DNA from: a virus
Virus record (IMG/VR): IMGVR_UViG_3300001782_000012
Location: 1-35,293 of that record
Strand: one strand, 5' to 3'
Length of the DNA: 35,293 nt
Both the position numbers and the translations under genes were made by a program. This document shows, in pieces, positions 631-26,654 of the stretch. The stretch's first letter is position 1, and each line of letters starts with the position of its first letter. The notes beneath the pieces are model-generated. The model saw nothing but the letters and a program-made list of their open reading frames with translations, had not been told where the DNA came from and did no database searches.

Positions 631-634
631 GATT

Positions 635-2842: not shown

Positions 2843-2931
2843 TACTGTCCTCCTCCTGCTGGAACCTCAGGTACTGCATCGTCCTTAGTTTCCTCATCTT
2901 CTCCATTGTAAAACCGATCAAATTTCTGCAT
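2842..2931 (-). CDS. Very small acidic protein
   Basis: A 29-residue frame from ATG at 2931 to TAA at 2844-2842. The middle is acidic (NGEDEETKDDAVPEVP) and the end is Gly-rich (AGGGQ). Its stop overlaps the start of the following membrane-protein gene (TAATG), the same junction used by the large tail genes, and it fills an otherwise empty gap. The protein is too short for a family call. Being very short it could be a chance frame, but the coupling argues for translation. Confidence 0.45.
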   Translation of the reverse strand: MQKFDRFYNGEDEETKDDAVPEVPAGGGQ

Positions 2932-2970
2932 AACTAAACTTTTAAATTAAACCTATTCAAAGATAGTGAT

Positions 2971-3911: not shown

Positions 3912-3913
3912 TA

Positions 3914-15524: not shown

Positions 15525-16155
15525 TTTTCATAGATTTACGAGTAACTTCTTCATTAACTTTGTGCAATTTCTCAATCCATTTACGCATAGTTATTTTGTG
15601 AATATCAATATCTTTTTTTGTGTAATCTTCAATAGATTCTATAGTTTTATAAATACTTACTTCTTCATTATCCTTATTTGTTCCTAATTTTGACATCATT
15701 TCTGAATGCTTTATTGCTATCTTAGTTTGAATATTCATTGATTGCTTCTTGACTCTTACAAGCTCATCAAAGTAATTTTTATTAGGATTCAATCTATAAC
15801 CTTCTTTTGATAATTCATTGATATAATGCTCATTTTTATAATATTCCTCTAATCCAAGCAGAGCAACTAAAGCATGAATTCTCATTAGTTTTTTTTGCAT
15901 ATTAAAAATATATACCTGATCAGTAAATAGATTCTTATTACGTCTGCTTAATTTCAATTCTAACTCTTGTTTTTCAAGCTTCATATCATCCCATACTGAA
16001 GATAGATAAGCAGTATCAATATCAGGCAATTCCTCATAATCTTCCAGCTTAAATAAGTATCTTAAATCACCTGTTGTATCTACTTTATTATAGCAGAATA
16101 GAGTGATAAAATCTATTGATTTATAATGCTTATATTCTATTTTATTACCCGACAT
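15517..16155 (-). CDS. Hypothetical protein in the tail-assembly chaperone position
   Basis: A 212-residue, mostly helical, charged protein (ELPDIDTAYLSSVWDDMKLE, KQELELKLSRRNKNLFTDQV). It lies directly before the tape measure gene and overlaps it by 8 bases, and overlaps the tail completion gene by 11 bases. In siphophages this slot usually holds tail assembly chaperones that coat the tape measure. I see only one continuous frame and no obvious slippery site, so a classical G/GT frameshift is not supported. The role is inferred from position. Confidence 0.6.
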   Translation of the reverse strand: MSGNKIEYKHYKSIDFITLFCYNKVDTTGDLRYLFKLEDYEELPDIDTAYLSSVWDDMKLEKQELELKLSRRNKNLFTDQVYIFNMQKKLMRIHALVALLGLEEYYKNEHYINELSKEGYRLNPNKNYFDELVRVKKQSMNIQTKIAIKHSEMMSKLGTNKDNEEVSIYKTIESIEDYTKKDIDIHKITMRKWIEKLHKVNEEVTRKSMKNG

Positions 16156-16585
16156 ATTTAATAAGTGATTTTGTTATAAAATCTAATACAGGAGGATATA
16201 CATAAGCTTGAAAGACTTCTTCTGAACTTTTTTCAGTTAATCCAAAAATATCAGATGAATATTTATCTGTTAGCTTTCCTGTCTTTGAATCAGTTGCATT
16301 AAATGTCAAATTTTCAGTTGTAACATTAACAAAAAATGACCGCCTAAAAGCTCCTGTATCTTTTAGATTTGGATTCCAGTTAGGCTTATTTTTTCTTCTC
16401 TTATATCCAGGCGAATATTCGGGAACTACAGGTTGACCAGTATTTAATATCCCTTCATCCAATTGCTTTTCATTAGCATCTAGCATTTTTCCTGTAGCTT
16501 TTTTAACAGATATATCCGTAATTCTAGATAAGTTATCTATTATATTATTTGCATGCTTTAAAAGTAATTCAGATGCCAGAGCCAT
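16145..16585 (-). CDS. Tail completion or neck protein, HK97 gp10-like
   Basis: A 146-residue protein with an N-terminal helix (LASELLLKHANNIIDNLSRI), a basic region (YSPGYKRRKNKPNWNP) and NLKDTGAFRRSFFVNV, resembling the 'L-x-D-T-G-x-L-x-x-S' core of HK97 gp10-type tail completion proteins that join tail to head. It is the first gene of the tail operon and follows its own promoter (16603-16626). The other connector genes are 10 kb away (26656-27868), because a block of small genes separates them. The family call is from a short motif, so moderate. Confidence 0.6.
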   Translation of the reverse strand: MALASELLLKHANNIIDNLSRITDISVKKATGKMLDANEKQLDEGILNTGQPVVPEYSPGYKRRKNKPNWNPNLKDTGAFRRSFFVNVTTENLTFNATDSKTGKLTDKYSSDIFGLTEKSSEEVFQAYVYPPVLDFITKSLIKYVG

Positions 16586-16602
16586 AATACTTATCTTTTA
16601 CA

Positions 16603-16626
16603 CAAAGATAGCGAATTATTTAGAAT
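16603..16626 (-). promoter_or_regulatory. Promoter of the tail operon with ATTCTAAAT element
   Basis: On the minus strand TATCTTTG (16610-16603) fits the TAnnTTTG -7 box, and ATTCTAAAT (16626-16618) lies 7 bases upstream of it, inside the usual spacer. A clear TTTG at -33 is missing, which suggests dependence on an activator. Transcription should begin near 16597 and run through the tail and lysis genes to 1211. Confidence 0.75.
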
Positions 16627-16651
16627 GAATTTAAATAGAGATTTTGGACAT

Positions 16652-16675
16652 AAAAAAAGCCCCATAATTGGGACT
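16652..16675 (-). terminator. Intrinsic terminator of the small-gene minus operon
   Basis: AGCCCCA (16658-16664) and TGGGACT (16669-16675) pair as a 7-bp stem with a 4-base loop; on the minus strand the one imperfect pair is a U-G wobble and seven T residues follow. It ends transcription from the genes at 18452-16793 just before the tail promoter. Confidence 0.8.
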
Positions 16676-16751
16676 TATTTTTATGATTAACATTTAATCT
16701 CCAATAAGCTGATTTTAAATATATTACAAAGGCAGTGTTTTATATCCACTA

Positions 16752-16793
16752 GTTAGGTGTAAGCGCAGCCAGCCCACGCTTACACCATTTAAC
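16752..16793. repeat. Hairpin with attC-like ends
   Basis: GGTGTAAGCG (16756-16765) and CGCTTACACC (16777-16786) form a perfect 10-bp stem, flanked by GTTA (16752-16755) and TAAC (16790-16793) with a 3-base bulge on one side. The stop codon of the gene at 17017-16793 overlaps the right flank. The form is that of a gene-cassette recombination site; a transcription role is less likely since there is no T run. Confidence 0.6.
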
Positions 16794-17017
16794 TAAAACT
16801 GGTCGTCAAACATTAGTTCTAAATTGATGGCAAATGCTATAAAGTTACCAGCCAAATCCTCTGGCTTTTCAAGTCCACCACGCTTAGTGATTTTGCCATA
16901 AAAACGCATCCAATTTTCTTCCAAATACTCTAGGTCTGCATCTGTTGCACCTCTTTTTATCATTTCTGCAATGGCAAATTTCTTAGCTTGCTCTGCTCTT
17001 TCTTGAATCTTATCCAT
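16793..17017 (-). CDS. Small helical hypothetical protein
   Basis: A 74-residue protein, largely helical, acidic at its end (LEKPEDLAGNFIAFAINLEL, MFDDQF). The N-terminus (MDKIQERAEQAKKFAIAEMI) is a likely amphipathic helix. It starts 12 bases after the stop of the preceding small gene, following a boundary sequence GTTGGCGCTTAAATTAAATT, and its TAG stop overlaps the attC-like hairpin. No family recognised. It belongs to a run of four unrelated small genes (17767-16793). Confidence 0.65.
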   Translation of the reverse strand: MDKIQERAEQAKKFAIAEMIKRGATDADLEYLEENWMRFYGKITKRGGLEKPEDLAGNFIAFAINLELMFDDQF

Positions 17018-17028
17018 TCTAATTTAAT

Positions 17029-17217
17029 TTAAGCGCCAACACCTAACAAAGTATATAATTTATAGGCAGTTAGCAGGTTTATAATAAAATTTAATTCTCG
17101 TTTCAAAGTATGTAGGTAATTCAAAGTTAGTGGTTCGTTATGCCTACAAAATCTATTTAATTTAAATAGATCATCTCTTAGTTTATCTTCATCGTAAAAA
17201 TCAAAATTCAATTTCAT
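17029..17217 (-). CDS. Small helical hypothetical protein
   Basis: A 62-residue helical protein (DEDKLRDDLFKLNRFCRHNE, then LNYLHTLKRELNFIINLLTA). The last residues (GVGA) are encoded by the boundary sequence GTTGGCGCTTAA, so the cassette edge appears to supply the C-terminus and stop. It stands between two other small genes with no shared operon signals beyond direction. No function can be given. Confidence 0.6.
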   Translation of the reverse strand: MKLNFDFYDEDKLRDDLFKLNRFCRHNEPLTLNYLHTLKRELNFIINLLTAYKLYTLLGVGA

Positions 17218-17265
17218 ATCTATTTATTTAAGTTAATAACTATATACATAAAGCATTGAAACTCT

Positions 17266-17445
17266 TCATGTATTTTTGTTATTAATTGCTGAACTTATCA
17301 GCTCTTCTTGTCGCTCCCTTCCATCAAAGCTATTATGTATAACTATCATATTTCCTTCCACATGTTCAACATTTGGCTTACATTTGCAAGTGATCGATTC
17401 TTCGTGTGGTTCAATGTCATTTATAGGTAATATGTGCTGTGTCAT
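17266..17445 (-). CDS. Small hypothetical protein
   Basis: A 59-residue protein beginning MTQHILPINDIEPHEESITC and carrying a Cys pair (CKCKP). A longer frame from a TTG at 17472 would run through a perfect 10-bp hairpin (17459-17500), so the ATG at 17445, preceded by an A-rich leader, is taken as the start. The C-terminus is polar (DGRERQEELISSAINNKNT). No family recognised. Confidence 0.6.
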   Translation of the reverse strand: MTQHILPINDIEPHEESITCKCKPNVEHVEGNMIVIHNSFDGRERQEELISSAINNKNT

Positions 17446-17458
17446 GATTTTAATAATA

Positions 17459-17500
17459 ACAGCAACTAACAAGGCATAATACTACATAGCTAGTTGCTGT
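17459..17500. repeat. Boundary hairpin upstream of a small gene
   Basis: ACAGCAACTA (17459-17468) and TAGTTGCTGT (17491-17500) are perfect inverted repeats around a 22-base loop. The hairpin lies 13 bases upstream of the minus-strand start at 17445 and has no T run. Similar hairpins precede the small genes at 20820 and 24497. Confidence 0.65.
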
Positions 17501-17548
17501 AAGGTTCAACATTATAGTAATTTGGTCAAAATTAAATATGCCAACGCT

Positions 17549-17767
17549 CTATTCTAAAGTTTTAACGTTTCCATTAAAGTCTTTCAAAATCACACTACCA
17601 TCATCACAAAAGGCTAAATATTCATTTTTTATGGTTTTTACAATGGTCTTATCTAAATCAACTCTAATTTGTTCAAATCTAAATTTTAACCAGTTAAACT
17701 TCCTTATGTAATTCTCAACAATTACACCGCCCATTTTTAATTCTTTTTCTACTGTGTACTTTTCCAT
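17549..17767 (-). CDS. Small hypothetical protein
   Basis: A 72-residue protein with a mixed alpha/beta look (VIVENYIRKFNWLKFRFEQI, then LAFCDDGSVILKDFNGNVKT). The end, DDGSVILKDFNGNVKTLE, reads like beta strands of a small repeat fold. It is followed by GTTGGCATATTTAATTTT, similar to the boundary beside 17029, and preceded by an imperfect hairpin (TTGA...TCAA, about 17810-17840). No function can be given. Confidence 0.6.
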   Translation of the reverse strand: MEKYTVEKELKMGGVIVENYIRKFNWLKFRFEQIRVDLDKTIVKTIKNEYLAFCDDGSVILKDFNGNVKTLE

Positions 17768-17855
17768 CGCTTCTATTTAATTTTTAGTTAGTATATCTAT
17801 TATCTTTTGTGTCAATTGATCGCTACGTAGCATATGCTCAACTGTTATACATTAT

Positions 17856-18452
17856 TTAAAGATTAAGCCCAAATTCAATAAATTCATTAATTGATTCATT
17901 CATTTTATTATCATCTTTTATGATATATTCTGAATCTGTTATATTAATCAGTCCTAGCACATCAGTAGCGCGGCCATTTAAGCCATAATTGTATTCATTA
18001 TTATGCACTTTAATAGTACAATAAACAACATCATCATTCATGCAATAGATGTCTAATTTGCTTACAGTAAAAGGCCATTGAGCGAAATTTTTACTATAAA
18101 TCCTTTTCTTCTTGATTATTTTTTCATCATATCCTTTGTTGAAAAATGATGAATTATAACATCTCTCTATTTCTTTATCTGACATCAAATTAATCAAGTT
18201 GAAATTCTCAGTTTCAGCTTCATTCATTATGTAATTAAATAATACAAGTCGTTTTTTATTTGTTCCACTATTAGGTTTTTTTGCCCATAATCTTATCGTT
18301 TCATTCCTTAGATATAATTCTTTTTTGGCTTGCTTAAATGATCTTCTATTTTCATTTAATTGATTAAATAATAGCTTTATCCATAAGCCAACTAATTTAA
18401 AATACTGCCCTGATAATTGAAATAATGCTTTAATTTTAGTTCCCATATTCAT
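17856..18452 (-). CDS. DUF2511/YebY-like domain protein
   Basis: A 198-residue protein. Residues 1-95 are basic and helical, with a hydrophobic stretch at 17-31 (YFKLVGLWIKLLFN) that may touch the membrane. Residues 122-165 read NFAQWPFTVSKLDIYC ... VVYCTIKVHNNEYNYGLNG, which follows the pattern W-P-(F/L)-T-V, a Cys, then Y-x-L-N-G of DUF2511 (YebY) proteins. Those are usually small secreted proteins of unknown role, so an internal copy with a helical extension is unusual. It is transcribed from the promoter at 18474-18501, divergent from the 18629 operon. The family call comes from pattern memory, not a search. Confidence 0.6.
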   Translation of the reverse strand: MNMGTKIKALFQLSGQYFKLVGLWIKLLFNQLNENRRSFKQAKKELYLRNETIRLWAKKPNSGTNKKRLVLFNYIMNEAETENFNLINLMSDKEIERCYNSSFFNKGYDEKIIKKKRIYSKNFAQWPFTVSKLDIYCMNDDVVYCTIKVHNNEYNYGLNGRATDVLGLINITDSEYIIKDDNKMNESINEFIEFGLNL

Positions 18453-18473
18453 TTATTTTTTATTAATATACGG

Positions 18474-18501
18474 CAAATCTAAAACAAAAATCATTTAGAA
18501 T
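18474..18501 (-). promoter_or_regulatory. Minus-strand promoter with ATTCTAAAT 11 bases from -7
   Basis: TAGATTTG (18481-18474 on the minus strand) is a -7 box. ATTCTAAAT (18501-18493) lies 11 bases upstream, where the -33 element would be. The same 11-base spacing occurs at 20661 and 32215. It should drive the gene at 18452 and perhaps those downstream to the terminator at 16652. Confidence 0.7.
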
Positions 18502-18520
18502 GAATTTAAATAATGGCTTT

Positions 18521-18539
18521 ATTTAGAAATATTCTAAAT
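18521..18539. promoter_or_regulatory. Palindromic operator candidate
   Basis: ATTTAGAA-ATA-TTCTAAAT is a perfect 8-bp inverted repeat with a 3-base centre, in the divergent region between genes at 18452 and 18629. Its right half lies 35 bases upstream of the plus-strand -7 box. Half sites recur at most promoters of the window, so this looks like the full binding site of a dimeric phage regulator. Confidence 0.65.
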
Positions 18540-18551
18540 TAGCGTTTTTGC

Positions 18552-18582
18552 TTGCGCGTTCTAATTATTAGATTTATATTTG
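18552..18582 (+). promoter_or_regulatory. Bacteroidota-type promoter
   Basis: TTG (18552-18554), 20 bases, then TATATTTG (18575-18582). The core CTAATTATTAGATT before the -7 box is identical in the minus-strand promoter at 1150. Transcription begins near 18588 and the leader ends in ACTAAAGAAC before the ATG at 18629. Confidence 0.85.
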
Positions 18583-18628
18583 TGCCAACGAATGAGGATA
18601 ACCTCACTAACAATTAAAACTAAAGAAC

Positions 18629-18832
18629 ATGAAAACTTACAAATTAAAAGAATTAGACATTTATATAGCAAATGTCTTTTCTAAAACAGATGCTGTATTT
18701 GTTGCCAGGCTTAATTCAATTGGAGTAACTGAAGATGACATTGAAGAAACAGATTTAAATGTCAATGAGCTTCATGTTATTTCAAAGGTTTTTAGAAGCT
18801 ATTCTGCTTTAGAGCCTTTTTTAGAAAAGTGA
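18629..18832 (+). CDS. Small acidic hypothetical protein
   Basis: A 67-residue protein starting MKTYKLKELDIYIANVFSKT and rich in Asp and Glu (GVTEDDIEETDLNVNELHV). Its start is fixed by the conserved leader ACTAAAGAAC directly before the ATG and by the promoter 47 bases upstream. It is the first gene after the divergent control region, so it is probably made early. No family recognised; an acidic DNA mimic or regulator is possible but not supported by a motif. Confidence 0.65.
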   Translation: MKTYKLKELDIYIANVFSKTDAVFVARLNSIGVTEDDIEETDLNVNELHVISKVFRSYSALEPFLEK

Positions 18833-18908
18833 TTAATTAAAAAATGTGTGTGTTATGCCTGCACTTTAAAAACAGCACAATAGTTTATTAACACTAAAAG
18901 TAATTAAT

Positions 18909-19178
18909 ATGAGCATAAATGATTATAAACATGATCAGTCAAGTACTTCACAAAGTGTTAGCATCCGTTTGTTTTATTGGTTTTCCCCAAAATATAGTAA
19001 ATGGAAATTACTTGAAGTATATTATTTTAATACCAGTTGGTATACTGTACAAGTTAGGCAAAATGTGAATACTGGATATAAGCAGTTTAAATGCAAAAAG
19101 TTTATTGGTTCTCATTATGGACACAGTGCAAAAAATTTGTCAGTTGAAGGAATTGAGGCAATTTTAAACGGTTGCTAA
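18909..19178 (+). CDS. Small aromatic-rich hypothetical protein
   Basis: An 89-residue basic protein with a beta-rich centre (VSIRLFYWFSPKYSKWKLLE, VYYFNTSWYTVQVRQNVNTG). Its last codon and stop (TGC TAA) lie within the boundary motif GTTGCTAACAAA (19171-19182), exactly as at the end of the gene at 32404. It lies in the same direction as its neighbours after a 76-base gap. Function unknown. Confidence 0.65.
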   Translation: MSINDYKHDQSSTSQSVSIRLFYWFSPKYSKWKLLEVYYFNTSWYTVQVRQNVNTGYKQFKCKKFIGSHYGHSAKNLSVEGIEAILNGC

Positions 19179-19226
19179 CAAATATGTATAATTACCTAAA
19201 TAATTAACTAAAATTAAATCAAAATC

Positions 19227-19646
19227 ATGTACGAAGCAAAAGTAAAGTACACCACTATCGACCAAGAAAGCGGTAAAGAGAAGAAATTTAATGTTGCATT
19301 TATTGTCGATGCAATGAGTTATACTGAATGTGAATCAAGATTGATAAAAGAATTAACTAAGTTCACTTATAATTATATCATTAGTCCAATTAAATTATCA
19401 AATTATACCGATCTTTTTCTTGGAAATGATGGAGACAAATATTATCGCGCTAAGCTGCAATTTATTTCAGTTGATGAATCAGCCGGGAAAGAGAAGAAGG
19501 TTAGTAATAACGTGCTTATCGTTGCTGATAGCCTGGAACAAGCAAAGGAATATTTGAATGTAGAGATTAGTAAAATGGTAGTTGATTGTGATGTCACTTC
19601 TATTTCTGAGACTAATATTATGGATGTGTTTTTGTATCAGAAATAA
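19227..19646 (+). CDS. DUF4494 family protein
   Basis: A 139-residue protein made of two similar halves: AKVKYTTIDQESGKEKKFNV with AFIVDAMSYTECESRLIKEL, and AKLQFISVDESAGKEKKVSN with NVLIVADSLEQAKEYL, ending in TSISETNIMDVFLYQK. The pattern, the length and the ending 'I-x-E-T-x-I-M-D-V-F' match DUF4494, which is found across Bacteroidota chromosomes and their phages. The role of the family is unknown; it is probably cytoplasmic. The start is the ATG 48 bases after the boundary motif at 19176. The gene is followed at once by the promoter of the structured RNA, which begins in its last codons. Confidence 0.85.
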   Translation: MYEAKVKYTTIDQESGKEKKFNVAFIVDAMSYTECESRLIKELTKFTYNYIISPIKLSNYTDLFLGNDGDKYYRAKLQFISVDESAGKEKKVSNNVLIVADSLEQAKEYLNVEISKMVVDCDVTSISETNIMDVFLYQK

Positions 19647-19660
19647 TTTTACTATATTTG
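19631..19660 (+). promoter_or_regulatory. Promoter of the structured RNA
   Basis: TTTG (19631-19634), 18 bases, then TATATTTG (19653-19660). It overlaps the end of the DUF4494 gene. Transcription should start about 5-7 bases after the box, near 19666. No ATTCTAAAT element is nearby, unlike most promoters here. Confidence 0.75.
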
Positions 19661-19665
19661 CACAT

Positions 19666-19810
19666 GACTTTGTGGCGAAGTCTTTAAACGCGGATTATGA
19701 CAAAAGAAATTAAAAATACTTCATATTTAAGCTGTAAATGTTCAGCTATTCATGATTCGCGTTTAAAATGTACAACCTCATCCGAATGCCACTGGATGAG
19801 GTTATTTTTT
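19666..19810 (+). ncRNA. Candidate structured small RNA of about 145 nt
   Basis: Between a promoter (19653) and a terminator (19774-19810) lies a compact fold. GACTT (19666-19670) and AAGTC (19678-19682) make a 5-prime hairpin. TTTAAACGCGGATTATGA (19683-19700) pairs along all 18 positions with TCATGATTCGCGTTTAAA (19750-19767), using two G-U wobbles that work only in the plus-strand RNA. Inside is a third hairpin, AGCTG (19730-19734) with CAGCT (19743-19747). The ATG at 19697 is buried in the long stem, and the frame from it (Cys-rich, crossing the terminator) does not look like a normal protein. It could be a free small RNA or a leader controlling the small gene at 19829 and those beyond. No known RNA family recognised. 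Confidence 0.6.
19774..19810 (+). terminator. Terminator of the structured RNA
   Basis: AACCTCATCC (19774-19783) and GGATGAGGTT (19794-19803) form a perfect 10-bp stem with a 10-base loop, followed by A and six T residues (19805-19810). It is the strongest plus-strand terminator in the block. Confidence 0.88.
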
Positions 19811-19828
19811 GTACATAGCAGTTCAAAA

Positions 19829-19960
19829 ATGGCTACTGCGGAAAGTGATTGCATCGACTTTAAAACAAAAAGCATCCAGTCTATTTATTACGAAATCCCA
19901 CGAAAGAGAGCAATGTCCGGCCTGACAACTCTTGACCGTCTGCACAATTTTTTAGGATAG
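19829..19960 (+). CDS. Small hypothetical protein after the structured RNA
   Basis: A 43-residue frame from ATG at 19829 to TAG at 19960: MATAESDCIDFKTKSIQSIY, YEIPRKRAMSGLTTLDRLHN, FLG. Base composition is richer in G and C than the neighbouring genes, hinting at a different origin. The frame is open further upstream to 19697 but that part covers the RNA stem and the terminator, so the shorter start is preferred. It has no promoter of its own that I can see and might be expressed only by read-through of the terminator. It may also be non-coding. Confidence 0.35.
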   Translation: MATAESDCIDFKTKSIQSIYYEIPRKRAMSGLTTLDRLHNFLG

Positions 19961-20092
19961 TGGGAATACTGATCAGGCAGTAGTAATATTAATGGGCTTT
20001 GTTATAATATCTGTATATTATTTCAAAATGGCTACATGGTAGTAGTGCAGGAAGAAATGGTTATGTAATAATGTTAAACTAAATAAAAAGCT

Positions 20093-20425
20093 ATGTCACA
20101 AACAGCATCAGGTAAAATGAGAAAAGAAAAATGGTATAACAAAAACATCTTTCCATTAGTACCAGTTTTAGAATTGAAAAGTGCAAATGAGCATAATACA
20201 AGCGGATTTGTATTTAGATGGTTATTTATAACAATATGGACTTTAGATAATGTCCAGTTTGAGATTGCATTTGTAATGGATACTCATTGGGGAATTGGCT
20301 TTATTGGCCTTATTCCTTATTTAAGATGGGTTATATCTATTCCATGCCCTGAAAAGATAGGAATATGGTTTGATAATAAAACATCAAGATATAGATTTAT
20401 CAAAAAACTAAATAAAAAGCTATGA
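20093..20425 (+). CDS. Hypothetical membrane-associated protein
   Basis: A 110-residue protein with a hydrophobic, Trp-rich middle (FVFRWLFITIWTLDNVQFEI, WGIGFIGLIPYLRWVISIPC) and a basic end (RYRFIKKLNKKL). One or two segments may lie in the membrane. The gene at 20422 overlaps its stop by 4 bases (ATGA), so they form a pair. The 130-base gap before it (19961-20092) has no clear promoter. Family unknown, although proteins of this look are common among small genes of Bacteroidota phages. Confidence 0.65.
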   Translation: MSQTASGKMRKEKWYNKNIFPLVPVLELKSANEHNTSGFVFRWLFITIWTLDNVQFEIAFVMDTHWGIGFIGLIPYLRWVISIPCPEKIGIWFDNKTSRYRFIKKLNKKL

Positions 20426-20646
20426 AACCAAAAGAAAAAGCAGAAGAATTATTGAATAAATATTTTAATGCAGTAGAGCATAGACATACTAGCAGAAAAT
20501 TAGCTAAAAAACTATCATTAATAATAGTAGACGAAATAATAAAAGATTTTAAAGGTTATATAGTAAAGCATTATTTGACTTTAGAATCTGCAATTGATTT
20601 GTGTGAATATTGGAAACAAGTGAAAATAGAATTAAATAATCTATAG
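20422..20646 (+). CDS. Small helical hypothetical protein
   Basis: A 74-residue helical protein starting MKPKEKAEELLNKYFNAVEH and ending EYWKQVKIELNNL. A similar pattern (K-E-K-A-x-E-L ... I-I-V-D-E-I-I ... Y-W-x-x-V-K-x-E-I) recurs in small unnamed proteins of Bacteroidota phages, as far as I can recall. It overlaps the preceding gene by ATGA and is probably co-translated. A role in protein binding is all that can be guessed. Confidence 0.7.
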   Translation: MKPKEKAEELLNKYFNAVEHRHTSRKLAKKLSLIIVDEIIKDFKGYIVKHYLTLESAIDLCEYWKQVKIELNNL

Positions 20647-20660
20647 CCTAATTTATATTT

Positions 20661-20688
20661 ATTCTAAATACTTTAATGAGTATATTTG
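20661..20688 (+). promoter_or_regulatory. Promoter with ATTCTAAAT 11 bases from -7
   Basis: ATTCTAAAT (20661-20669), 11 bases, then TATATTTG (20681-20688). The leader then holds AACGG, CCGTT and AACGG in series (about 20694-20723), which allow alternative pairing, and a possible 13-codon reading frame from the ATG at 20709 (MSRLTEFDLKNKY). It should drive the genes at 20820-21490. Confidence 0.75.
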
Positions 20689-20760
20689 TGGGGTAACGGA
20701 AAAGTATATGAGCCGTTTAACGGAATTTGATTTAAAAAACAAATATTAATAATAACACAA

Positions 20761-20803
20761 ACACCTGATTATATGCACTTAAAATGGCTTATATACGGTG
20801 TTG
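20761..20803. repeat. Boundary hairpin upstream of a small gene
   Basis: AACACC (20761-20766) pairs with GGTGTT (20798-20803), and inner AT-rich arms extend the stem imperfectly. It lies 16 bases before the ATG at 20820 and has no T run, like the hairpins at 17459 and 24434. Confidence 0.55.
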
Positions 20804-20819
20804 TAAATCTGTAAAAATT

Positions 20820-21008
20820 ATGACACAAAAGACACAGACTTTATTTATTTACCCGAATGGTGATATAGCTAAAAGAGTTGATGATTTTCTTTACCAACCA
20901 ATTAATAAGGTAATAATAATTGAGGATAAAGAATGGGATATAAAACGGCAATATGATGAATTTGATTGCGAAGGTTGGTTGGTAAGGAAAATATACCTGA
21001 CGCAATAA
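20820..21008 (+). CDS. Small hypothetical protein
   Basis: A 62-residue acidic protein, MTQKTQTLFIYPNGDIAKRV, with IEDKEWDIKRQYDEFDCEGW. An earlier ATG at 20784 would place the first 12 codons inside the boundary hairpin, so the ATG after the A-rich leader is preferred. It is followed 12 bases later by the boundary motif ACAACGAATCTGTATAATTA. No family recognised. Confidence 0.6.
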   Translation: MTQKTQTLFIYPNGDIAKRVDDFLYQPINKVIIIEDKEWDIKRQYDEFDCEGWLVRKIYLTQ

Positions 21009-21056
21009 TTTTTATTGTTTACAACGAATCTGTATAATTAATAAAAATCATAAATC

Positions 21057-21302
21057 ATGGTATATCAACACTTAACCAAATCAGAGATTGCGCAAATACG
21101 CAATATAATAGGTTCAAATCCTCATAAAGCACTTGATATATTGCGCGATTGCGCAGAGATTTCAGGATTAACATCTAAAGCTGAATATTCAAAAGTTATG
21201 TGTATTTCATTAAGAACAGTCCAGGATGGATGCAAGAAAGAAAGTATAATTTCTTTAGATATAAATGGCGATAAATTCCCATGCGTAAATTGTAATTTAT
21301 GA
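21057..21302 (+). CDS. Helix-turn-helix DNA-binding protein
   Basis: An 81-residue protein. The first 35 residues are helical (MVYQHLTKSEIAQIRNIIGS). Residues about 36-70 read GLTSKAEYSKVMCISLRTVQ then DGCKKESIISLDINGDKF, the pattern 'S-K-x-E-Y-x-x-x-x-x-x-S-x-R-T-V-Q' of MerR or excisionase-like helix-turn-helix proteins in Bacteroidota and their phages. A Cys pair (CVNC) ends it. It probably binds phage DNA and regulates nearby genes. It overlaps the next gene by ATGA. Confidence 0.65.
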   Translation: MVYQHLTKSEIAQIRNIIGSNPHKALDILRDCAEISGLTSKAEYSKVMCISLRTVQDGCKKESIISLDINGDKFPCVNCNL

Positions 21303-21490
21303 CACACTTCATAAGAACTAAAAGATTAAAACTATACCCTCATCATTACGAGTCAGAAAAAGAATATCACATTGGTGATTGGTTGTGTTTTAAAGAGTGG
21401 AAATATGGAGAAATGATGAGCGGATGTTTTTCATTCCAGGTTAAAGAGAAGGATAAAATAGGGGATAAATTTAGATATTGGTTAGAATAG
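21299..21490 (+). CDS. Small hypothetical protein
   Basis: A 63-residue protein with a beta-rich, aromatic sequence (HIGDWLCFKEWKYGEMMSGC, FSFQVKEKDKIGDKFRYWLE). It overlaps the DNA-binding protein gene by 4 bases and ends 10 bases before the terminator at 21500, so it closes this plus-strand operon. The small beta-barrel look is similar to the proteins at 21715 and 22458. Function unknown. Confidence 0.62.
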   Translation: MTHFIRTKRLKLYPHHYESEKEYHIGDWLCFKEWKYGEMMSGCFSFQVKEKDKIGDKFRYWLE

Positions 21491-21499
21491 ATAAAAATT

Positions 21500-21525
21500 A
21501 AGGCTACTATTAAGTAGCCTTTTTT
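21500..21525. terminator. Bidirectional terminator
   Basis: AAGGCTACT (21500-21508) and AGTAGCCTT (21513-21521) form a 9-bp stem with a 4-base loop and T runs on both sides (plus 21520-21525; on the minus strand the run after the stem is TAATTTTTA). It separates the convergent genes ending at 21490 and 21527. Confidence 0.88.
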
Positions 21526-21526
21526 A

Positions 21527-21715
21527 TTAATCAATTATTTTACATTTATCAAACTGTATCATATCCTGACCATACGAAGCGTTAACCCAATAGCAACTAT
21601 AAGCGCGATCTATTACGCTTACTTCAGCTTGGAATGTCTTTCCGGCCAATCTATCATCTGCATAATCTTTATCAAAAGACCACTCTATCAAATCACCTAC
21701 TTTTGCTGTTTTCAT
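21527..21715 (-). CDS. Small SH3-like hypothetical protein
   Basis: A 62-residue beta-rich protein starting MKTAKVGDLIEWSFDKDYAD, with AGKTFQAEVSVIDR and ASYGQDMIQFDKCKIID. The layout 'K-V-G-D-x-I-x-W ... A-x-V ... I-x-F-x-K-C-x-I-I' resembles small SH3-type barrels common in phages. It follows a -7 box only 4 bases from the ATG, so its mRNA may have almost no leader. Function unknown. Confidence 0.65.
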   Translation of the reverse strand: MKTAKVGDLIEWSFDKDYADDRLAGKTFQAEVSVIDRAYSCYWVNASYGQDMIQFDKCKIID

Positions 21716-21719
21716 TTTA

Positions 21720-21727
21720 CAAATATA
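21720..21727 (-). promoter_or_regulatory. Promoter box next to the start codon
   Basis: TATATTTG (21727-21720 on the minus strand) is followed by only four bases before the ATG at 21715. With the usual spacing, transcription would begin at or within a few bases of the start codon, giving a leaderless or near-leaderless mRNA. The -33 region falls in the terminator stem and lacks TTTG, so activity is uncertain. Confidence 0.5.
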
Positions 21728-21728
21728 T

Positions 21729-21756
21729 TAAAAATAGCCCCAGTATTGAGGCTATT
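21729..21756 (-). terminator. Minus-strand terminator
   Basis: AATAGCC (21733-21739) and GGCTATT (21750-21756) form a 7-bp stem with a 10-base loop; on the minus strand it runs into five T residues. It ends the operon 22458-21768. Confidence 0.75.
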
Positions 21757-21767
21757 AAATTATCTTA

Positions 21768-21986
21768 TTAAAATTCTTCATCTCTCAAACCCATATCTCT
21801 TAATATTTCATTCTGGGTTCTTTTTCTATGCTTAAATCCGCATATAGGACATTTATAAACTGTTTTCTCTTTGGAGTAATGAGTCTTCTTCTTATGCTTT
21901 TCCATTGTCATTTCTGTATGGCAAATAGGGCATAAAGATTCATCATTTACTTGATTTTCGAAATCTTCTTGGGTAAGATTTTTCAT
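21768..21986 (-). CDS. Small zinc-ribbon protein
   Basis: A 72-residue protein with two C-x-x-C knuckles, CPIC at residues 19-22 (SLCPICHTEMTMEKH) and CPIC at 46-49 (VYKCPICGFKHRKRT), typical of a zinc ribbon. The second knuckle is followed by a basic patch, so nucleic-acid binding is possible. It begins 2 bases after the stop of the gene upstream and ends before the terminator at 21729, as the last gene of a three-gene operon. Confidence 0.7.
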   Translation of the reverse strand: MKNLTQEDFENQVNDESLCPICHTEMTMEKHKKKTHYSKEKTVYKCPICGFKHRKRTQNEILRDMGLRDEEF

Positions 21987-21988
21987 AT

Positions 21989-22240
21989 CTATTCGTTTTC
22001 TTGTTTTAATAATTCATCGGCAATTATATAAGCTCTATGGACAAATCCTTGCATAATACCTTTGTCATCATAGTATCCAGAATGTGCCAATATTCCTTGC
22101 ATAGCCGCGCAAGCCGCATAAAATCTTTTGCTCATGCCTTGAGTGTTATGTTTAAGAGCATCTGATGCATATTGTCCATCAACTGGGAAAGCTGGTCCAC
22201 CATTATTTTTACTCATATCATTTAGTTTTAAAGTAGCCAT
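21989..22240 (-). CDS. Small phage protein of the GGPAFP type
   Basis: An 83-residue protein with NNGGPAFPVDGQYASDALKH, GMSKRFYAACAAMQGILAH and AYIIADELLKQ. This order (G-G-P-A-F-P, then G-M-S/T-x-R-x-Y-x-A-x-A-A-M-Q-G, then A-Y-x-x-A-D) marks a widespread unnamed phage protein family. Two starts are possible: ATG at 22240, coupled as TAATG to the gene upstream, or ATG at 22216, preceded by AACTAAATGAT, which resembles the other leaders. The family usually begins close to GGPAFP, which fits the second. Function unknown. Confidence 0.75.
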   Translation of the reverse strand: MATLKLNDMSKNNGGPAFPVDGQYASDALKHNTQGMSKRFYAACAAMQGILAHSGYYDDKGIMQGFVHRAYIIADELLKQENE

Positions 22241-22458
22241 TACATTATGGCTACTAGTCTATTTTTAAAAAGTTTTCTCTCTCCAATATAATCACTACGC
22301 AATACCTTTTCTTTAATAGTGATTGTTTTTGCTGTTTCTTTTACTATCTCTAATACTTCTGAAACGCTTCCGAAATTCCACATTAATCTGGTACCAACTT
22401 TGATATTTGATGCTGGTTGAGCTGGAACTTTACCTACTGATTGTAATTGAATAGTCAT
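22240..22458 (-). CDS. Small SH3-like hypothetical protein
   Basis: A 72-residue beta-rich protein (NIKVGTRLMWNFGSVSEVLE, KTITIKEKVLRSDYIGERKL) with the 'V-G-x-R-L-x-W-N-x-G' opening of small SH3-like barrels. The leader CGATAGAGAT before its ATG is the same as that of the gene at 1128. It is the first gene of the operon driven by the promoter at 22481-22512, divergent from Rha. Confidence 0.65.
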   Translation of the reverse strand: MTIQLQSVGKVPAQPASNIKVGTRLMWNFGSVSEVLEIVKETAKTITIKEKVLRSDYIGERKLFKNRLVAIM

Positions 22459-22480
22459 ATCTCTATCGTTTTTGTTTATG

Positions 22481-22512
22481 CAAATATAAAGCGAATAAAA
22501 TTAATGAGCAAA
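22481..22512 (-). promoter_or_regulatory. Minus-strand promoter, divergent from rha promoter
   Basis: TTTG (22512-22509), 20 bases, TATATTTG (22488-22481) on the minus strand, a full Bacteroidota consensus. It drives genes from 22458 to 21768. No ATTCTAAAT element is present. Confidence 0.85.
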
Positions 22513-22538
22513 TAAAATGATGTTTTTTAATATTATTT

Positions 22539-22568
22539 TTTGACTTTGATATTTTAATGCTATATTTG
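22539..22568 (+). promoter_or_regulatory. Promoter of the Rha-type gene
   Basis: TTTG (22539-22542), 18 bases, TATATTTG (22561-22568), with the ATG 24 bases further on. It is back to back with the promoter at 22481, leaving only 26 bases between the two -33 elements, so one regulator could act on both. Confidence 0.8.
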
Positions 22569-22591
22569 CACCAATATTAAAAGTAGTTTTT

Positions 22592-23314
22592 ATGAAGACA
22601 GATTTGGTACATGTTTTAAAGAAAGAAGTATTTACTGATTCAATTGTGATTTCTGAATTATTAGACGTTCCTCATAAAGTTCTAATAAATACCATAGAAA
22701 GAATAATTGAAAGAACAGAAAAAAACAATGGCACGACCAAGCCATTGAAATTTCCTCAAAAATTCATTGAAACAACATACACTAATAAGATGAATAGGTC
22801 TTATAAAATGTATGAATTAAATGAACAAGCTTATATGAAGTTGGCAATGCATCTGAAAGGATATGATAATGCAGAAAGAGTGCAAGATAGCATTATCGAA
22901 GCATTTTCAATGATGAAAGAAGCATTATTAAATCATCAAAATGCAAGTTGGTTGAATGCACGAAATGAATGCAAGGCAATCAGAAGTGCTGAAACGGATA
23001 TTATAAAAAAGTTTGTTGATTATGCCACATGCCAGGGTAGTAAATCAGCTAACATGTATTATATGAATATAACTAAAATGACAAATAAAGCATTAGAGTT
23101 ATTAATACAAGTTAAAGAAGGTAGTCCATTGCGTGATTTAGCTAATATTATGGAACTTGGGTATATTCAAATGTTAGAATATAGGGCTACGCAAGCAATT
23201 GAACATGGAATGAATCAAAAATTACCTTACAAATTTATTTATAACTATGCAAAAGAAGAAGTAAATAAACTTGCCGATAGTCTTAATTTTAATAAAAAAT
23301 CATTAAACTCATGA
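22592..23314 (+). CDS. Rha family phage regulatory protein
   Basis: A 240-residue protein. Residues about 10-110 match the Rha domain: VFTDSIVISELLDVPHKVLI, later TYTNKMNRSYKMYELNEQAY and MHLKGYDNAERVQDSIIEAF, with the winged-helix start and the 'Y-x-L-x-x-x-A-x-x-x-L' core followed by a helix. Rha proteins are phage regulators known from lambdoid phages, where overproduction interferes with growth in hosts lacking IHF. The C-terminal half is helical and unnamed (about 120-240). Expression is from a strong promoter at 22539. It overlaps the next gene by ATGA. Its presence hints at, but does not prove, a temperate life cycle. Confidence 0.85.
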   Translation: MKTDLVHVLKKEVFTDSIVISELLDVPHKVLINTIERIIERTEKNNGTTKPLKFPQKFIETTYTNKMNRSYKMYELNEQAYMKLAMHLKGYDNAERVQDSIIEAFSMMKEALLNHQNASWLNARNECKAIRSAETDIIKKFVDYATCQGSKSANMYYMNITKMTNKALELLIQVKEGSPLRDLANIMELGYIQMLEYRATQAIEHGMNQKLPYKFIYNYAKEEVNKLADSLNFNKKSLNS

Positions 23315-23553
23315 AAGAAGTAATTAGATATAGGTGTGACCATTGTAATGAAGTTTTTGCAAATAAGAGTTACACTTTAAAACATGAAGAAATATGTTAT
23401 TGGAATCCTAAAACTAAAAGTTGTATTAATTGTGAAAACTTTATTCCAGAATCACAAAGTTCTGGATACATTAGGATATGCACAAAAGGTATTAACTTAA
23501 CTAAGAAATTAAAAAGTGCTTGTATTAAGCATAAAGAAAATGAAGAACAATAA
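23311..23553 (+). CDS. Small zinc-finger protein
   Basis: An 80-residue protein. Residues 9-29 read CDHCNEVFANKSYTLKHEEI then C, a C2H2/C2HC-type zinc finger with the usual F at position 16. A second Cys cluster follows (CINCENF, CTKG, CIKH), likely another metal site. It is coupled to Rha by ATGA and is therefore probably made with it. DNA or RNA binding is likely from the finger, though target and role are unknown. Confidence 0.68.
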   Translation: MKEVIRYRCDHCNEVFANKSYTLKHEEICYWNPKTKSCINCENFIPESQSSGYIRICTKGINLTKKLKSACIKHKENEEQ

Positions 23554-23594
23554 ATGTCAACAGTATTTATCTAACAAGTATAATAAATAGAATC

Positions 23595-23646
23595 ATTCTA
23601 AACTACAAATTCATGCAACTTTAATTATTAGATTTCGTTATATTTG
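23595..23646 (+). promoter_or_regulatory. Promoter with ATTCTAAAC 35 bases from -7
   Basis: ATTCTAAAC (23595-23603), 35 bases, TATATTTG (23639-23646). The shared core TTAATTATTAGATTT (23621-23635) links it to the promoters at 1150 and 18552. A good TTTG at -33 is missing. The leader ends in ACTAAAGAG before the ATG at 23667. Confidence 0.72.
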
Positions 23647-23666
23647 TGAAACTAAAAACTAAAGAG

Positions 23667-23897
23667 ATGAAAATTTACAAGATTACTTTGAAGATTACAG
23701 ATGAGAATGGTGTTAGATTCTCTCATGTGTATGTTAAGAATAATGATACTATAGCCGCTATATATGCTGCTAAATTGAAGTTGTGTAATAACAGATTAGG
23801 GCTTAAATCTGATAACAAGATTACTGATCTTAGTAAGGCGTTGAATAAGCTGCCTGGTGTTAAGGTTGAATTGAATAAGGTTGAGTGTTATAAATAA
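23667..23897 (+). CDS. Small basic hypothetical protein
   Basis: A 76-residue basic protein (MKIYKITLKITDENGVRFSH, VYVKNNDTIAAIYAAKLKLC) with two beta strands followed by helices. A GTG at 23646 would lengthen it by 7 residues but lies in the promoter box, so the ATG at 23667 is taken. No family recognised. It has its own promoter and is followed by a 105-base AT-rich gap with no clear signal. Confidence 0.65.
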   Translation: MKIYKITLKITDENGVRFSHVYVKNNDTIAAIYAAKLKLCNNRLGLKSDNKITDLSKALNKLPGVKVELNKVECYK

Positions 23898-24002
23898 TGT
23901 ATAGTTGTATAAAATGTGATTACAATTATGCAAAAAAATTAATTTGAAATACAGACTAATAAAAAAATATTGATTTATTTTTAATATATAAAACAAGATA
24001 TT

Positions 24003-24422
24003 ATGAATGAGAAAATATTAGCATTTAGAGAAAAAGAAAAAGAAAAACAAGCTGAATGGGATAGAAGAAGAAGAATGGATGAATTAGAGTATGAAAGAAA
24101 AAAAGATTCATTTGAGAAATTCAAAAGAAACAACCTAAGAAATGCAACTGTTAAAGATTATGAAATCTGGCTAAAGGAATGGTTAGTTGAAAATGATATA
24201 ACTCATTATTACAATTATAATTATCCAAGCAATAATTATATTGCAATTAGAAATTTTGTTTTAGATGTAGGATATTATGGTTCACAAAGTTTTAATATTA
24301 TAGTGCCTAAAGGTATTAGTTACGAGATAAAAGAGCTAGGACATTGCAATATATATGATATGAATGATATAAGTTGCATTGGACATTGGGTGCCTGCATA
24401 TGATAATGTAAATGTTGAGTAG
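24003..24422 (+). CDS. Hypothetical protein with N-terminal coiled coil
   Basis: A 139-residue protein. Residues 1-50 are a strongly charged helix (MNEKILAFREKEKEKQAEWD, RRRRMDELEYERKKDSFEKF), the rest a compact domain (NYNYPSNNYIAIRNFVLDVG, ISYEIKELGHCNIYDMNDIS). The stop TAG is followed at once by a TAACGG-type boundary and the hairpin at 24434. Function unknown. Confidence 0.65.
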   Translation: MNEKILAFREKEKEKQAEWDRRRRMDELEYERKKDSFEKFKRNNLRNATVKDYEIWLKEWLVENDITHYYNYNYPSNNYIAIRNFVLDVGYYGSQSFNIIVPKGISYEIKELGHCNIYDMNDISCIGHWVPAYDNVNVE

Positions 24423-24433
24423 TATAAATAACG

Positions 24434-24457
24434 GTCGGCAATATGAAAAGTGCCGAC
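24434..24457. repeat. Boundary hairpin GTCGGCA...TGCCGAC
   Basis: GTCGGCA (24434-24440) and TGCCGAC (24451-24457) form a perfect 7-bp stem with a 10-base loop in otherwise AT-rich DNA. TAACG flanks it on both sides (24429-24433 and 24459-24463). It lies 39 bases before the ATG at 24497 and has no T run. Confidence 0.65.
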
Positions 24458-24496
24458 TATAACGAACTGAATTATCAATTTAAACCAAATAATAAT

Positions 24497-24730
24497 ATGA
24501 AACACAAATTTTCAATAACCAACAAACTAAGGCATTTTTTATATTGCTTGTTATGTTGCGTTAAATTTATAGCAGGTTGGATAATGTGGGTAATAATATT
24601 TCTGTTATCACTATTATTTTCGTTAATAACATGGAATTGGAAAGAAACAATTGGACTTGATATGGAAAATGCAATAACAGAAATATGTGGTAAAAGTACA
24701 TGGAATTGCATGATGCTTAATGCAACATAA
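24497..24730 (+). CDS. Small membrane protein
   Basis: A 77-residue protein with a long hydrophobic stretch (about residues 14-48, CLLCCVKFIAGWIMWVIIFL then LSLLFSLITW), enough for one or two membrane crossings, and a Cys/Met-rich end (ITEICGKSTWNCMMLNAT). An ATG at 24443 would start inside the boundary hairpin, so the ATG after the A-rich leader is preferred. No family recognised. Confidence 0.6.
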   Translation: MKHKFSITNKLRHFLYCLLCCVKFIAGWIMWVIIFLLSLLFSLITWNWKETIGLDMENAITEICGKSTWNCMMLNAT

Positions 24731-24735
24731 CAAAA

Positions 24736-24765
24736 ATATATGCCGCGTTTCAATGCGGTATATAT
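24736..24765. repeat. Hairpin after the membrane protein gene
   Basis: ATATATGCCGC (24736-24746) pairs with GCGGTATATAT (24755-24765) over 11 positions with one G-U wobble and an 8-base loop. It follows the stop TAAC of the gene at 24730. No T run follows, so it is either a weak terminator or another gene-boundary hairpin. Confidence 0.55.
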
Positions 24766-24816
24766 CTAATTATTTGTTAATTTTAAATCTAACAATTAAA
24801 TTGAAAACGTTGAGAT

Positions 24817-24867
24817 ATGAACAGCCTAAACAAAGTCATCAAAAAGCACAATTCTAAGGCATGGTAG
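24817..24867 (+). CDS. Possible 16-residue leader peptide
   Basis: A short frame, MNSLNKVIKKHNSKAW, whose end overlaps the start of the next small gene (ATG at 24861) in another frame. Such an overlap can couple translation. It is basic, which is unusual for chance frames here, but the size makes it uncertain. Confidence 0.25.
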   Translation: MNSLNKVIKKHNSKAW

Positions 24868-25004
24868 AGTTTAATGATACAACTAATGAATATCATTGCT
24901 CCTCATTTCCTGATTCATTACCGGCCCATATTGTTGATTATATAGAATGTCATTATGATGTTATAGGTAAGGATAGATTTAGTGTAACTTTTAAAGATAA
25001 ATGA
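24861..25004 (+). CDS. Very small acidic hypothetical protein
   Basis: A 47-residue frame from ATG at 24861 to TGA at 25004 (MVEFNDTTNEYHCSSFPDSL, PAHIVDYIECHYDVIGKDRF, SVTFKDK). The next gene begins 1 base after its stop. It has two Cys and several Asp/Glu residues. No family recognised. Tight packing with the next two tiny genes supports a real operon. Confidence 0.5.
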   Translation: MVEFNDTTNEYHCSSFPDSLPAHIVDYIECHYDVIGKDRFSVTFKDK

Positions 25005-25005
25005 T

Positions 25006-25167
25006 ATGAATAAATCACTTCAAATGGCCTATTACAATGGCCTATGCAAAATAAATTATATCCTAGCTAAATCTAAAGAGGGTAGGAGTATTATAATGAA
25101 TCAAGCCGTGTATATGGCTAGTAGTTTTTCTAAATTGTTTTATAAGAATCATGTTAAATATAATTGA
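25006..25167 (+). CDS. Very small hypothetical protein
   Basis: A 53-residue basic frame from ATG at 25006 to TGA at 25167 (MNKSLQMAYYNGLCKINYIL, AKSKEGRSIIMNQAVYMASS, FSKLFYKNHVKYN). Its first part resembles the start of the next tiny protein (compare YYNGLCK and YYGLYNK), so the two may be diverged copies. It packs tightly between its neighbours. Function unknown. Confidence 0.5.
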   Translation: MNKSLQMAYYNGLCKINYILAKSKEGRSIIMNQAVYMASSFSKLFYKNHVKYN

Positions 25168-25173
25168 TTAAAT

Positions 25174-25320
25174 ATGAACGTAGATAAATTAAATTCATTT
25201 AAATGCTTTTACTATGGATTATACAATAAGGATTTTAAATCACTAAGATTTATTTGCTGGAATACATTAATATCATTTTTGGCACTAATAGCTATGATTT
25301 TATTGGTTTTAAATGGATAA
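25174..25320 (+). CDS. Very small membrane protein
   Basis: A 48-residue frame from ATG at 25174 to TAA at 25320. Residues about 28-46 are hydrophobic (CWNTLISFLALIAMILLVLN), giving a single C-terminal membrane anchor. The following gene starts inside it (8-base overlap at 25313), so translation is likely coupled. Function unknown. Confidence 0.5.
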   Translation: MNVDKLNSFKCFYYGLYNKDFKSLRFICWNTLISFLALIAMILLVLNG

Positions 25321-25543
25321 GAAAATAGATGCACTCAGAAAAGTATTAAATATTGGAGCAGCTGCTTTTGAAATACAACATGCAGTAAGTATGTCATTTG
25401 GATACTCAGGGCCTAAAAGCTATATTCATAATCTTTATTTAGTAGCAAAAGAAGAAATAAATAAAGAACATCCAGATTTAAATAAAATAGATGTATTATT
25501 TGCAATGATACATGATGAATTTGATATAAAAAAAGGGGGCTAA
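25313..25543 (+). CDS. Small helical hypothetical protein
   Basis: A 76-residue helical protein (MDKKIDALRKVLNIGAAAFE, later YIHNLYLVAKEEINKEHPDL). Its stop lies in the loop of the terminator at 25533 and overlaps the stop of the convergent gene at 25540. It ends the plus-strand block. No family recognised. Confidence 0.65.
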   Translation: MDKKIDALRKVLNIGAAAFEIQHAVSMSFGYSGPKSYIHNLYLVAKEEINKEHPDLNKIDVLFAMIHDEFDIKKGG

Positions 25544-25553
25544 TTACCCCCTT
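25533..25553. terminator. Bidirectional terminator shared by convergent genes
   Basis: AAGGGGG (25533-25539) and CCCCCTT (25547-25553) form a 7-bp stem with a 7-base loop. On the minus strand it is followed by seven T residues, so it strongly ends the capsid operon; on the plus side the tract is TTCTTCTTT, weaker. The stop codons of both genes lie in the stem and loop. Confidence 0.85.
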
Positions 25554-25740
25554 CTTCTTTCTTATCCTTCGGCTTGTGCTTTAAATAGATTTTGTAATCT
25601 TCTTTTAAAACAATTTGTCTGTCTTTTACTTGCATTCCCTTCCAAGGTTTCAAGCGTCCAAAAAATTCAATAAACTGCTTTTCTGTAAACTCTAAACCTT
25701 CAATATTAACTTTTTTACCGCTTAATTCAATTAGCTTCAT
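25540..25740 (-). CDS. Small basic protein after the major tail protein
   Basis: A 66-residue basic protein (MKLIELSGKKVNIEGLEFTE, KQFIEFFGRLKPWKGMQVKD) ending KPKDKKEEGGN. It starts overlapping the major tail protein stop (TAATG) and is the last gene before the terminator. In siphophages the gene after the major tail protein is often a tail assembly chaperone, which would be a fair guess, but there is no frameshift partner and no family match. Confidence 0.6.
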   Translation of the reverse strand: MKLIELSGKKVNIEGLEFTEKQFIEFFGRLKPWKGMQVKDRQIVLKEDYKIYLKHKPKDKKEEGGN

Positions 25741-26654
25741 TACGATAGAATTACAGTTGCTGCCTCTAATGATTCGAATCCTTTTAAAGTCATGACATTG
25801 GATGGCACAAAATTAAACGTGTAAGTTCCAGCTGCGAGAGGAGTTCCAAAAGCAAATGTATATGTACCATCACTATTATCAGTAATAGTCGTTGGAGTTT
25901 GTTCAACACCAGCCGCATTTTTTACAGTCCAATCCTCTCCTGGTGTTTCGCTTGCTCCAGGAACGGCAGTGCCAGTTCTATAAGCTTCTGCTTTAATTAT
26001 CACTTCTGATAATGTTGGAGTTCCTTCTTCGCCTAACAAAACATATTCAAGTCCATTAAATTGACTTGGAGAAAAAGATAATCCAGATACCACAGATGGG
26101 CTATCATACCATGTTTTTGGATCTCCTAATTCCATTACAATTTTACATTTCATCGCCTCCCCGCCTTTAACAGGAGCATACTTCTCAACTGTAAAATTTT
26201 CAAGATTTACACTAGCAAAATGCTCTACATCGCTAACTTGCTTTGATATACCTTGAATGAATTCATTGTCATCAACAAATATAACAGAGCATGGTTTATT
26301 AGAGTGAGATACAAGCTGCTTGAATCCGTATCTAGTAACCTCAACCATAGCTGTATAGATTGTCTTTCCATCTCTGATAAAGACCCTTGATACTGCTCCC
26401 TCGTCATATTGTGCTTCTTCATTTTCATTGTCAACATCCATCACACCTCCAATTGGATATAACCTTGCTGCTGGCAATTCTTGAAGTTGTTCAATCCATT
26501 TCGACTCTACCTTTGCATCTGCATAGGGAATCGACCAATTTACAGGGGCTAATATTGGTTTTACAATTAATCCAAAATCCCTGCAAAAATTCTGAGTACC
26601 TGTGTTTTGCTTACTGCCTCCGCATAATACCGCATTATCATTTGTGTATGCCAT
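25740..26654 (-). CDS. Major tail protein with C-terminal Ig-like domain
   Basis: A 304-residue protein. Residues 1-210 form the tail-tube part (GGVMDVDNENEEAQYDEGAV, NLENFTVEKYAPVKGGEAMK, CKIVMELGDPKTWYDSP). Residues about 215-304 are an Ig-like decoration (TITDNSDGTYTFAFGTPLAA, GTYTFNFVPSNVMTLKGF). The size, the operon place after connector genes and the added C-terminal Ig-like domain fit siphophage tail tube proteins. It begins 1 base after the upstream stop and couples to the next gene by TAATG. Confidence 0.72.
   Translation of the reverse strand: MAYTNDNAVLCGGSKQNTGTQNFCRDFGLIVKPILAPVNWSIPYADAKVESKWIEQLQELPAARLYPIGGVMDVDNENEEAQYDEGAVSRVFIRDGKTIYTAMVEVTRYGFKQLVSHSNKPCSVIFVDDNEFIQGISKQVSDVEHFASVNLENFTVEKYAPVKGGEAMKCKIVMELGDPKTWYDSPSVVSGLSFSPSQFNGLEYVLLGEEGTPTLSEVIIKAEAYRTGTAVPGASETPGEDWTVKNAAGVEQTPTTITDNSDGTYTFAFGTPLAAGTYTFNFVPSNVMTLKGFESLEAATVILS

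Follow-up and report, generated by a model that had tools for sequence, protein, structure and literature searches.

A candidate 145-nt structured RNA gene, with a predicted promoter and terminator of its own, in a phage of Bacteroidota

The DNA analysed here is a virus record of 35,293 bases (the whole of which we call the window) carrying a siphophage-like set of structural genes on its minus strand. The virus is one of Bacteroidota bacteria. Its terminase shares 47% identity with the terminase of Tenacibaculum phage JQ, and its gene order (terminase, portal, capsid, tail proteins) matches that of the same phage. The run of structural genes is interrupted by a segment of about 9 kb (16600-25700) with small genes on both strands, flanked by a tail-tube-like gene (25740-26654, minus strand) and the next tail gene (16145-16585, minus strand); phage JQ has no such segment at that place. 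The segment includes a gene for a DUF4494 protein, a Rha-like regulator (22592-23314) and the candidate RNA unit that is the subject of this report. A second contig, 3300027893_000028 (12,305 bases), encodes identical terminase and portal proteins and seems to end at base 35293 of the window; this shared end may mark either a repeat or the physical end of the genome.

The upstream neighbour of the RNA unit is the DUF4494 gene (PF14902, Pfam 8.9e-36; 19227-19646, plus strand), whose 3' end overlaps a predicted promoter (19631-19660, plus strand) recognised as a sequence match composed of TTTG (19631-19634), 18 intervening nucleotides and TATATTTG (19653-19660). The unit itself starts 20 nt past the DUF4494 stop codon (19646) with a 7-bp hairpin, GACTTTG-TGG-CGAAGTC (19666-19682), predicted by folding and located at the likely transcript start. 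This is followed by a continuous 18-bp helix with two G-U pairs on the plus strand, whose 5' arm TTTAAACGCGGATTATGA (19683-19700) holds an ATG (19697-19699) and whose 3' arm is TCATGATTCGCGTTTAAA (19750-19767). According to the pair probabilities, the A/U-rich loop of 49 nt enclosed by the helix (19701-19749) is mostly unpaired and forms the largest unpaired stretch of the RNA, with an inner 5-bp hairpin, AGCTG...CAGCT, at about 19730-19747. An intrinsic terminator (19774-19810) closes the unit, with a 10-bp stem and 8-nt loop (19774-19803) and an ATTTTTT tail whose T6 lies at 19805-19810; it is the strongest terminator within 17-23 kb. The 277 nt that follow are unstructured (z +0.8), hence the unit ends at 19810. 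All parts of the 145-nt unit described in an earlier note on this DNA (promoter, 5' hairpin, 18-position stem, inner hairpin, 10-bp terminator and six T) are thus present in the sequence and its fold.

The structure is real and well above chance. Folding of 19661-19815, as the earlier note had proposed, gave -52.1 kcal/mol compared with -26.0 +/- 3.3 in shuffled sequences (z -7.95, none of 200 as good), and among 1406 segments of 150 nt taken from both strands the candidate is the top fold outlier, with a z of about -7.9 against -5.0 for the next. Dinucleotide-shuffling the window 60 times (one strand) never produced an uninterrupted 18-bp helix with at most two G-U pairs. The same region folds more weakly on the minus strand (-41.0, z -4.1). 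The acting strand had been said to be fixed by the two imperfect positions of the stem; both are indeed G-U pairs on the plus strand, but for two transitions this is expected about 1 in 4 times by chance and is weak evidence of strand, for which the promoter, the T-tract and the fold energy are better arguments.

The promoter consensus that we used, TTTG / TAnnTTTG, is that of Bacteroides sigma-ABfr, a class described for Bacteroides (PMC7366714). Its strict form, TTTG-N17..21-TANNTTTG, occurs 7 times in the window where 2.3 occurrences are expected; taken alone it is weak evidence for a promoter, with about two chance matches per 35 kb. The extended -7 element TATATTTGCA occurs three times in the window, each time heading a plausible transcription unit, including copies at 22561 (plus strand), upstream of the Rha-like gene at 22592, and at 22488 (minus strand), upstream of a gene at 22240-22458. 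The promoter copy of the RNA unit is common to the Rha-like antirepressor gene (repeat D6).

Neither of the reading frames in and just after the unit is gene-like. Under a codon model trained on 23 genes of the window, the frame that runs across the RNA (19697-19828) scores -0.21 bits per codon, which bears out the doubt already expressed about it, and the frame proposed as a small downstream gene (19829-19957) scores -0.23 bits per codon and resembles off-frame DNA; for 44-codon pieces, the 5th percentile in frame is +0.05 and the 95th percentile off frame is +0.14. The promoter match, the fold, the terminator and the absence of a coding signal are all seen directly in the sequence. The locus presents three features expected of an autonomous intergenic sRNA: a promoter of its own, as the sequence match TTTG-N18-TATATTTG, an intrinsic terminator, and non-coding composition, with both frames below the in-frame 5th percentile.

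The shape had been put forward as that of no known RNA family, and a search of Rfam 15 at gathering and relaxed thresholds agrees, returning no family match for the unit. Sub-threshold matches such as SSRC34_2 and SNORD96, which have a long closing stem in common with the candidate, reached at most about 17 bits (E about 2) against gathering scores of 43-48 and were set aside as chance. Searches with blastn against GenBank phages and PLSDB plasmids found nothing real, and exact-pattern scans of contigs from IMG/VR and GTDB for the stem, the paired arms and the 5' hairpin found no homologue above chance: when folded, the stem matches in viral contigs had no partner arm, the match to the 5'-hairpin pattern had no match to a single-sequence covariance model of the unit (R1), and 12 matches in genome contigs, covered by the R1 search only, gave nothing above chance. 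R1 scores the copy in the window at 192 bits; it detected nothing above chance in 396 Bacteroidota genomes and 398 genomes of one order (about 790 in all), nothing in 79 viral records with a related terminase, and no matching unit downstream at five further DUF4494-neighbour loci (L002-L006). Its sub-threshold matches lie in coding DNA or in a host 3' UTR, are as frequent as expected in so many genomes, and were dismissed as chance. One rejected match (L039; 36 nt at 89%, covering the terminator, with E 2.5e-6 in 1 of the 396 genomes) is antisense within a coding gene and has a broken hairpin. Nor was a counterpart, with a long stem beside a terminator or an extreme fold, found in some 600 kb of DNA from related phages, and no relatives were found for the downstream ORF at 20093. 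The candidate thus has no detectable homologues, which is not proof of uniqueness: relatives that have diverged strongly can escape both a model built on one sequence and a coarse first look.

The 18-bp helix is not the only long stem in this part of the genome. Counting uninterrupted helices of at least 15 bp with no more than three G-U pairs and a loop of 20-100, the plus strand of 17.0-25.7 kb holds 6 where 0.15 are expected, and further long helices were found in related phages. Most of these long stems have YAACG on the 5' side, TGTTR on the 3' side, an inner helix that often begins with TATG, and a loop whose length varies. In several there is a spacer without pairing and one additional unpaired base, and the majority are found no more than a few tens of bases from the stop codon of an ORF. 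Because these shared boxes, the spacer, the extra base and the position relative to the ORF stop are hallmarks of attC, we read most of the other long stems, in the window and in related phages, as integron attC-like recombination sites. Side-by-side comparison of stems places such sites in the window at 311-441 (minus strand), 20691-20806 (plus) and 24426-24556 (plus), and a covariance model built from 15 sites (R2) adds 17234-17284 (minus, 23 bits) and 24725-24775 (plus, 19 bits); this model also found others in relatives and misses its own long-loop members. The sites in the window are mostly found just after small ORFs, as in gene cassettes, and no integrase gene was seen in the window. 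Similar sites are present in the related phage contigs L133, L134, L135, L154 and L171 and in Tenacibaculum phage JQ (L048); L171, a terminase-related viral contig, has four of them within 1.5 kb (2828-4301), resembling a small cassette array borne by a phage. The idea that long helices generally sequester start codons in this phage was dropped, since most of the helices proved attC-like. Two plus-strand helices do not look like attC: one of 20 bp with a loop of 69 (20884-20903/20973-20992) inside the ORF 20784-21008, and one of 16 bp with a loop of 67 (23347-23362/23430-23445) inside the ORF 23311-23553. In the related phage contig L132, a 20-bp inverted repeat at about 3930-4008 has arms with TAACTTTG promoter-like boxes facing apart, possibly a divergent promoter with a symmetrical operator.

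Several explanations of the unit at 19666-19810 have to be weighed. It may belong to the DUF4494 operon as its structured 3' UTR and terminator, with the long stem and the terminator protecting the 3' end of the mRNA and any small RNA arising only as a 3' UTR-derived by-product; the short distance to the DUF4494 stop and the fact that this terminator is the first downstream on the plus strand are consistent with this, whereas the good Bacteroidota promoter, which precedes the 5' hairpin by exactly the right distance, is not, and a terminator needs far less than an 18-bp helix and a 5' hairpin. We consider this explanation unlikely, if the most serious competitor; the main difference from an autonomous sRNA is whether there is a primary 5' end at about 19666. 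Rather improbable, in our estimate, is a cis-acting leader that attenuates or otherwise regulates transcription into 20093 and later genes. The order of promoter, structured domain and terminator is leader-like, and no strict-pattern promoter match lies between the terminator and 20093, but no antiterminator pairing is found: the best alternative upstream partner of the terminator's 5' strand reaches -3.1 kcal/mol, the fold is unchanged when the terminator is left out, and the 18-bp helix is too stable for an easy switch. The next credible gene (20093) starts 283 nt past the terminator. With neither an alternative pairing for the terminator nor a gene closely downstream, an attenuator is less likely, and the more specific suggestion of an attenuating leader for a small gene at 19829 is not supported, given this lack of an alternative pairing and the non-coding score of that frame.

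Explanations at the level of DNA or of protein binding fare worse. The near-perfect inverted arms of the helix could be the binding site, in DNA or in RNA, of a regulator from the phage or its host, and serve as a decoy or operator pair; an arm recurs elsewhere in the window only as a match with three mismatches (627-644, minus strand), and the better folding of one strand would be needless for a DNA operator, so that we give this little credence. Slighter still is the chance that the stem is a degenerate attC-like site, even with so many such hairpins just after ORFs in the window and its relatives, and even though the stem itself lies 37 nt past an ORF stop and contains AAAC...GTTT. Under the box criteria applied (R'' RYYYAAC, at least YAAC; R' GTTRRRY, at least GTTR), its boxes are AAAC/GTTT (TTTAAAC / GTTTAAA) and not YAAC/GTTR; its 18 pairs are continuous, without an unpaired central spacer between R and L helices and without an extrahelical base; and the promoter, the 5' hairpin and the terminator would be left unexplained. 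The attC-like model, which also drops its own long-loop members, gives the stem 3.5 bits. Judged by the absent spacer, extrahelical base and YAAC/GTTR boxes, the stem is not an attC site.

The reading that we prefer, and to which we assign about an even chance, is that this Bacteroidota phage carries an autonomous gene for a non-coding RNA of about 145 nt whose loop probably acts in trans. That the unit is an RNA gene of no known family is plausible, though unproven, and is supported by the strong fold, the promoter, the terminator, the non-coding frame and the lack of an Rfam match. We infer its transcription, stability and action in trans as follows. Transcription by host RNA polymerase, driven by the promoter that lies within the DUF4494 gene at its 3' end, would begin at about 19666 and stop at 19810, yielding an RNA of roughly 145 nt. 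The 5' hairpin, the 18-bp helix and the terminator hairpin would give this RNA stable ends and present the 49-nt A/U-rich, mostly single-stranded loop; the loop, in turn, would most likely act in trans, by pairing with a phage or host mRNA, in the manner of Bacteroides intergenic sRNAs, or by binding a host RNA-binding protein. When the loop was compared with 50 translation start regions of the phage, no significant target emerged (best -21.1 kcal/mol, equalled by 6% of shuffled loops), and the target may therefore be in the host. A bolder version, which we offer as speculation and think improbable, is a new RNA family of Bacteroidota viruses, in which a highly folded 145-nt RNA with the promoter type of the phage's Rha-like antirepressor acts on host RNA metabolism or the lysis-lysogeny switch without an Hfq-type chaperone.

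Among known systems, the candidate invites comparison with the intergenic sRNAs of Bacteroides. In B. thetaiotaomicron, high-confidence intergenic sRNAs are marked by a transcription start site and an intrinsic terminator, and one of them, GibS, is 145 nt long and pairs with translation initiation regions (PMC7366714). The candidate has in common with these RNAs a TTTG/TAnnTTTG-class promoter of its own, an intrinsic terminator, a length of about 145 nt, low G+C and an exposed A/U-rich stretch, which by analogy with GibS could be the part that pairs with a target; in contrast to GibS, which is largely unstructured with a 5' seed, it is phage-borne and strongly folded (the sequences were compared through Rfam and BLAST only). 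It resembles the trans-acting phage sRNAs PreS of lambda, VpdS of VP882 and ipeX in being a small RNA encoded by a phage; no sequence relation to these three was found. Phage sRNAs of this kind act in Enterobacteria, Vibrio and other hosts, and a number of them depend on Hfq (PMC12197685). Sites of the attC type in phages have already been published, recombination-active ones included, in Polaribacter phage P12002L (PMC9892861), and resemble the stems described here as long imperfect inverted repeats just after ORFs, whereas the element at 19683-19767 is without their boxes, spacer and extrahelical base and comes with a promoter and a terminator. On present evidence the candidate is only an orphan of a known kind, the phage intergenic sRNA: a good candidate regulatory RNA and not a categorically new system. 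Phage regulatory RNAs have been described mainly from Proteobacteria, and a review of them names no example from Bacteroidota (PMC12197685). Since Bacteroides has no obvious Hfq or ProQ homologue, as noted in the B. thetaiotaomicron study (PMC7366714), a well-delimited phage RNA gene such as the one proposed here would be a test case for phage RNAs in this phylum.
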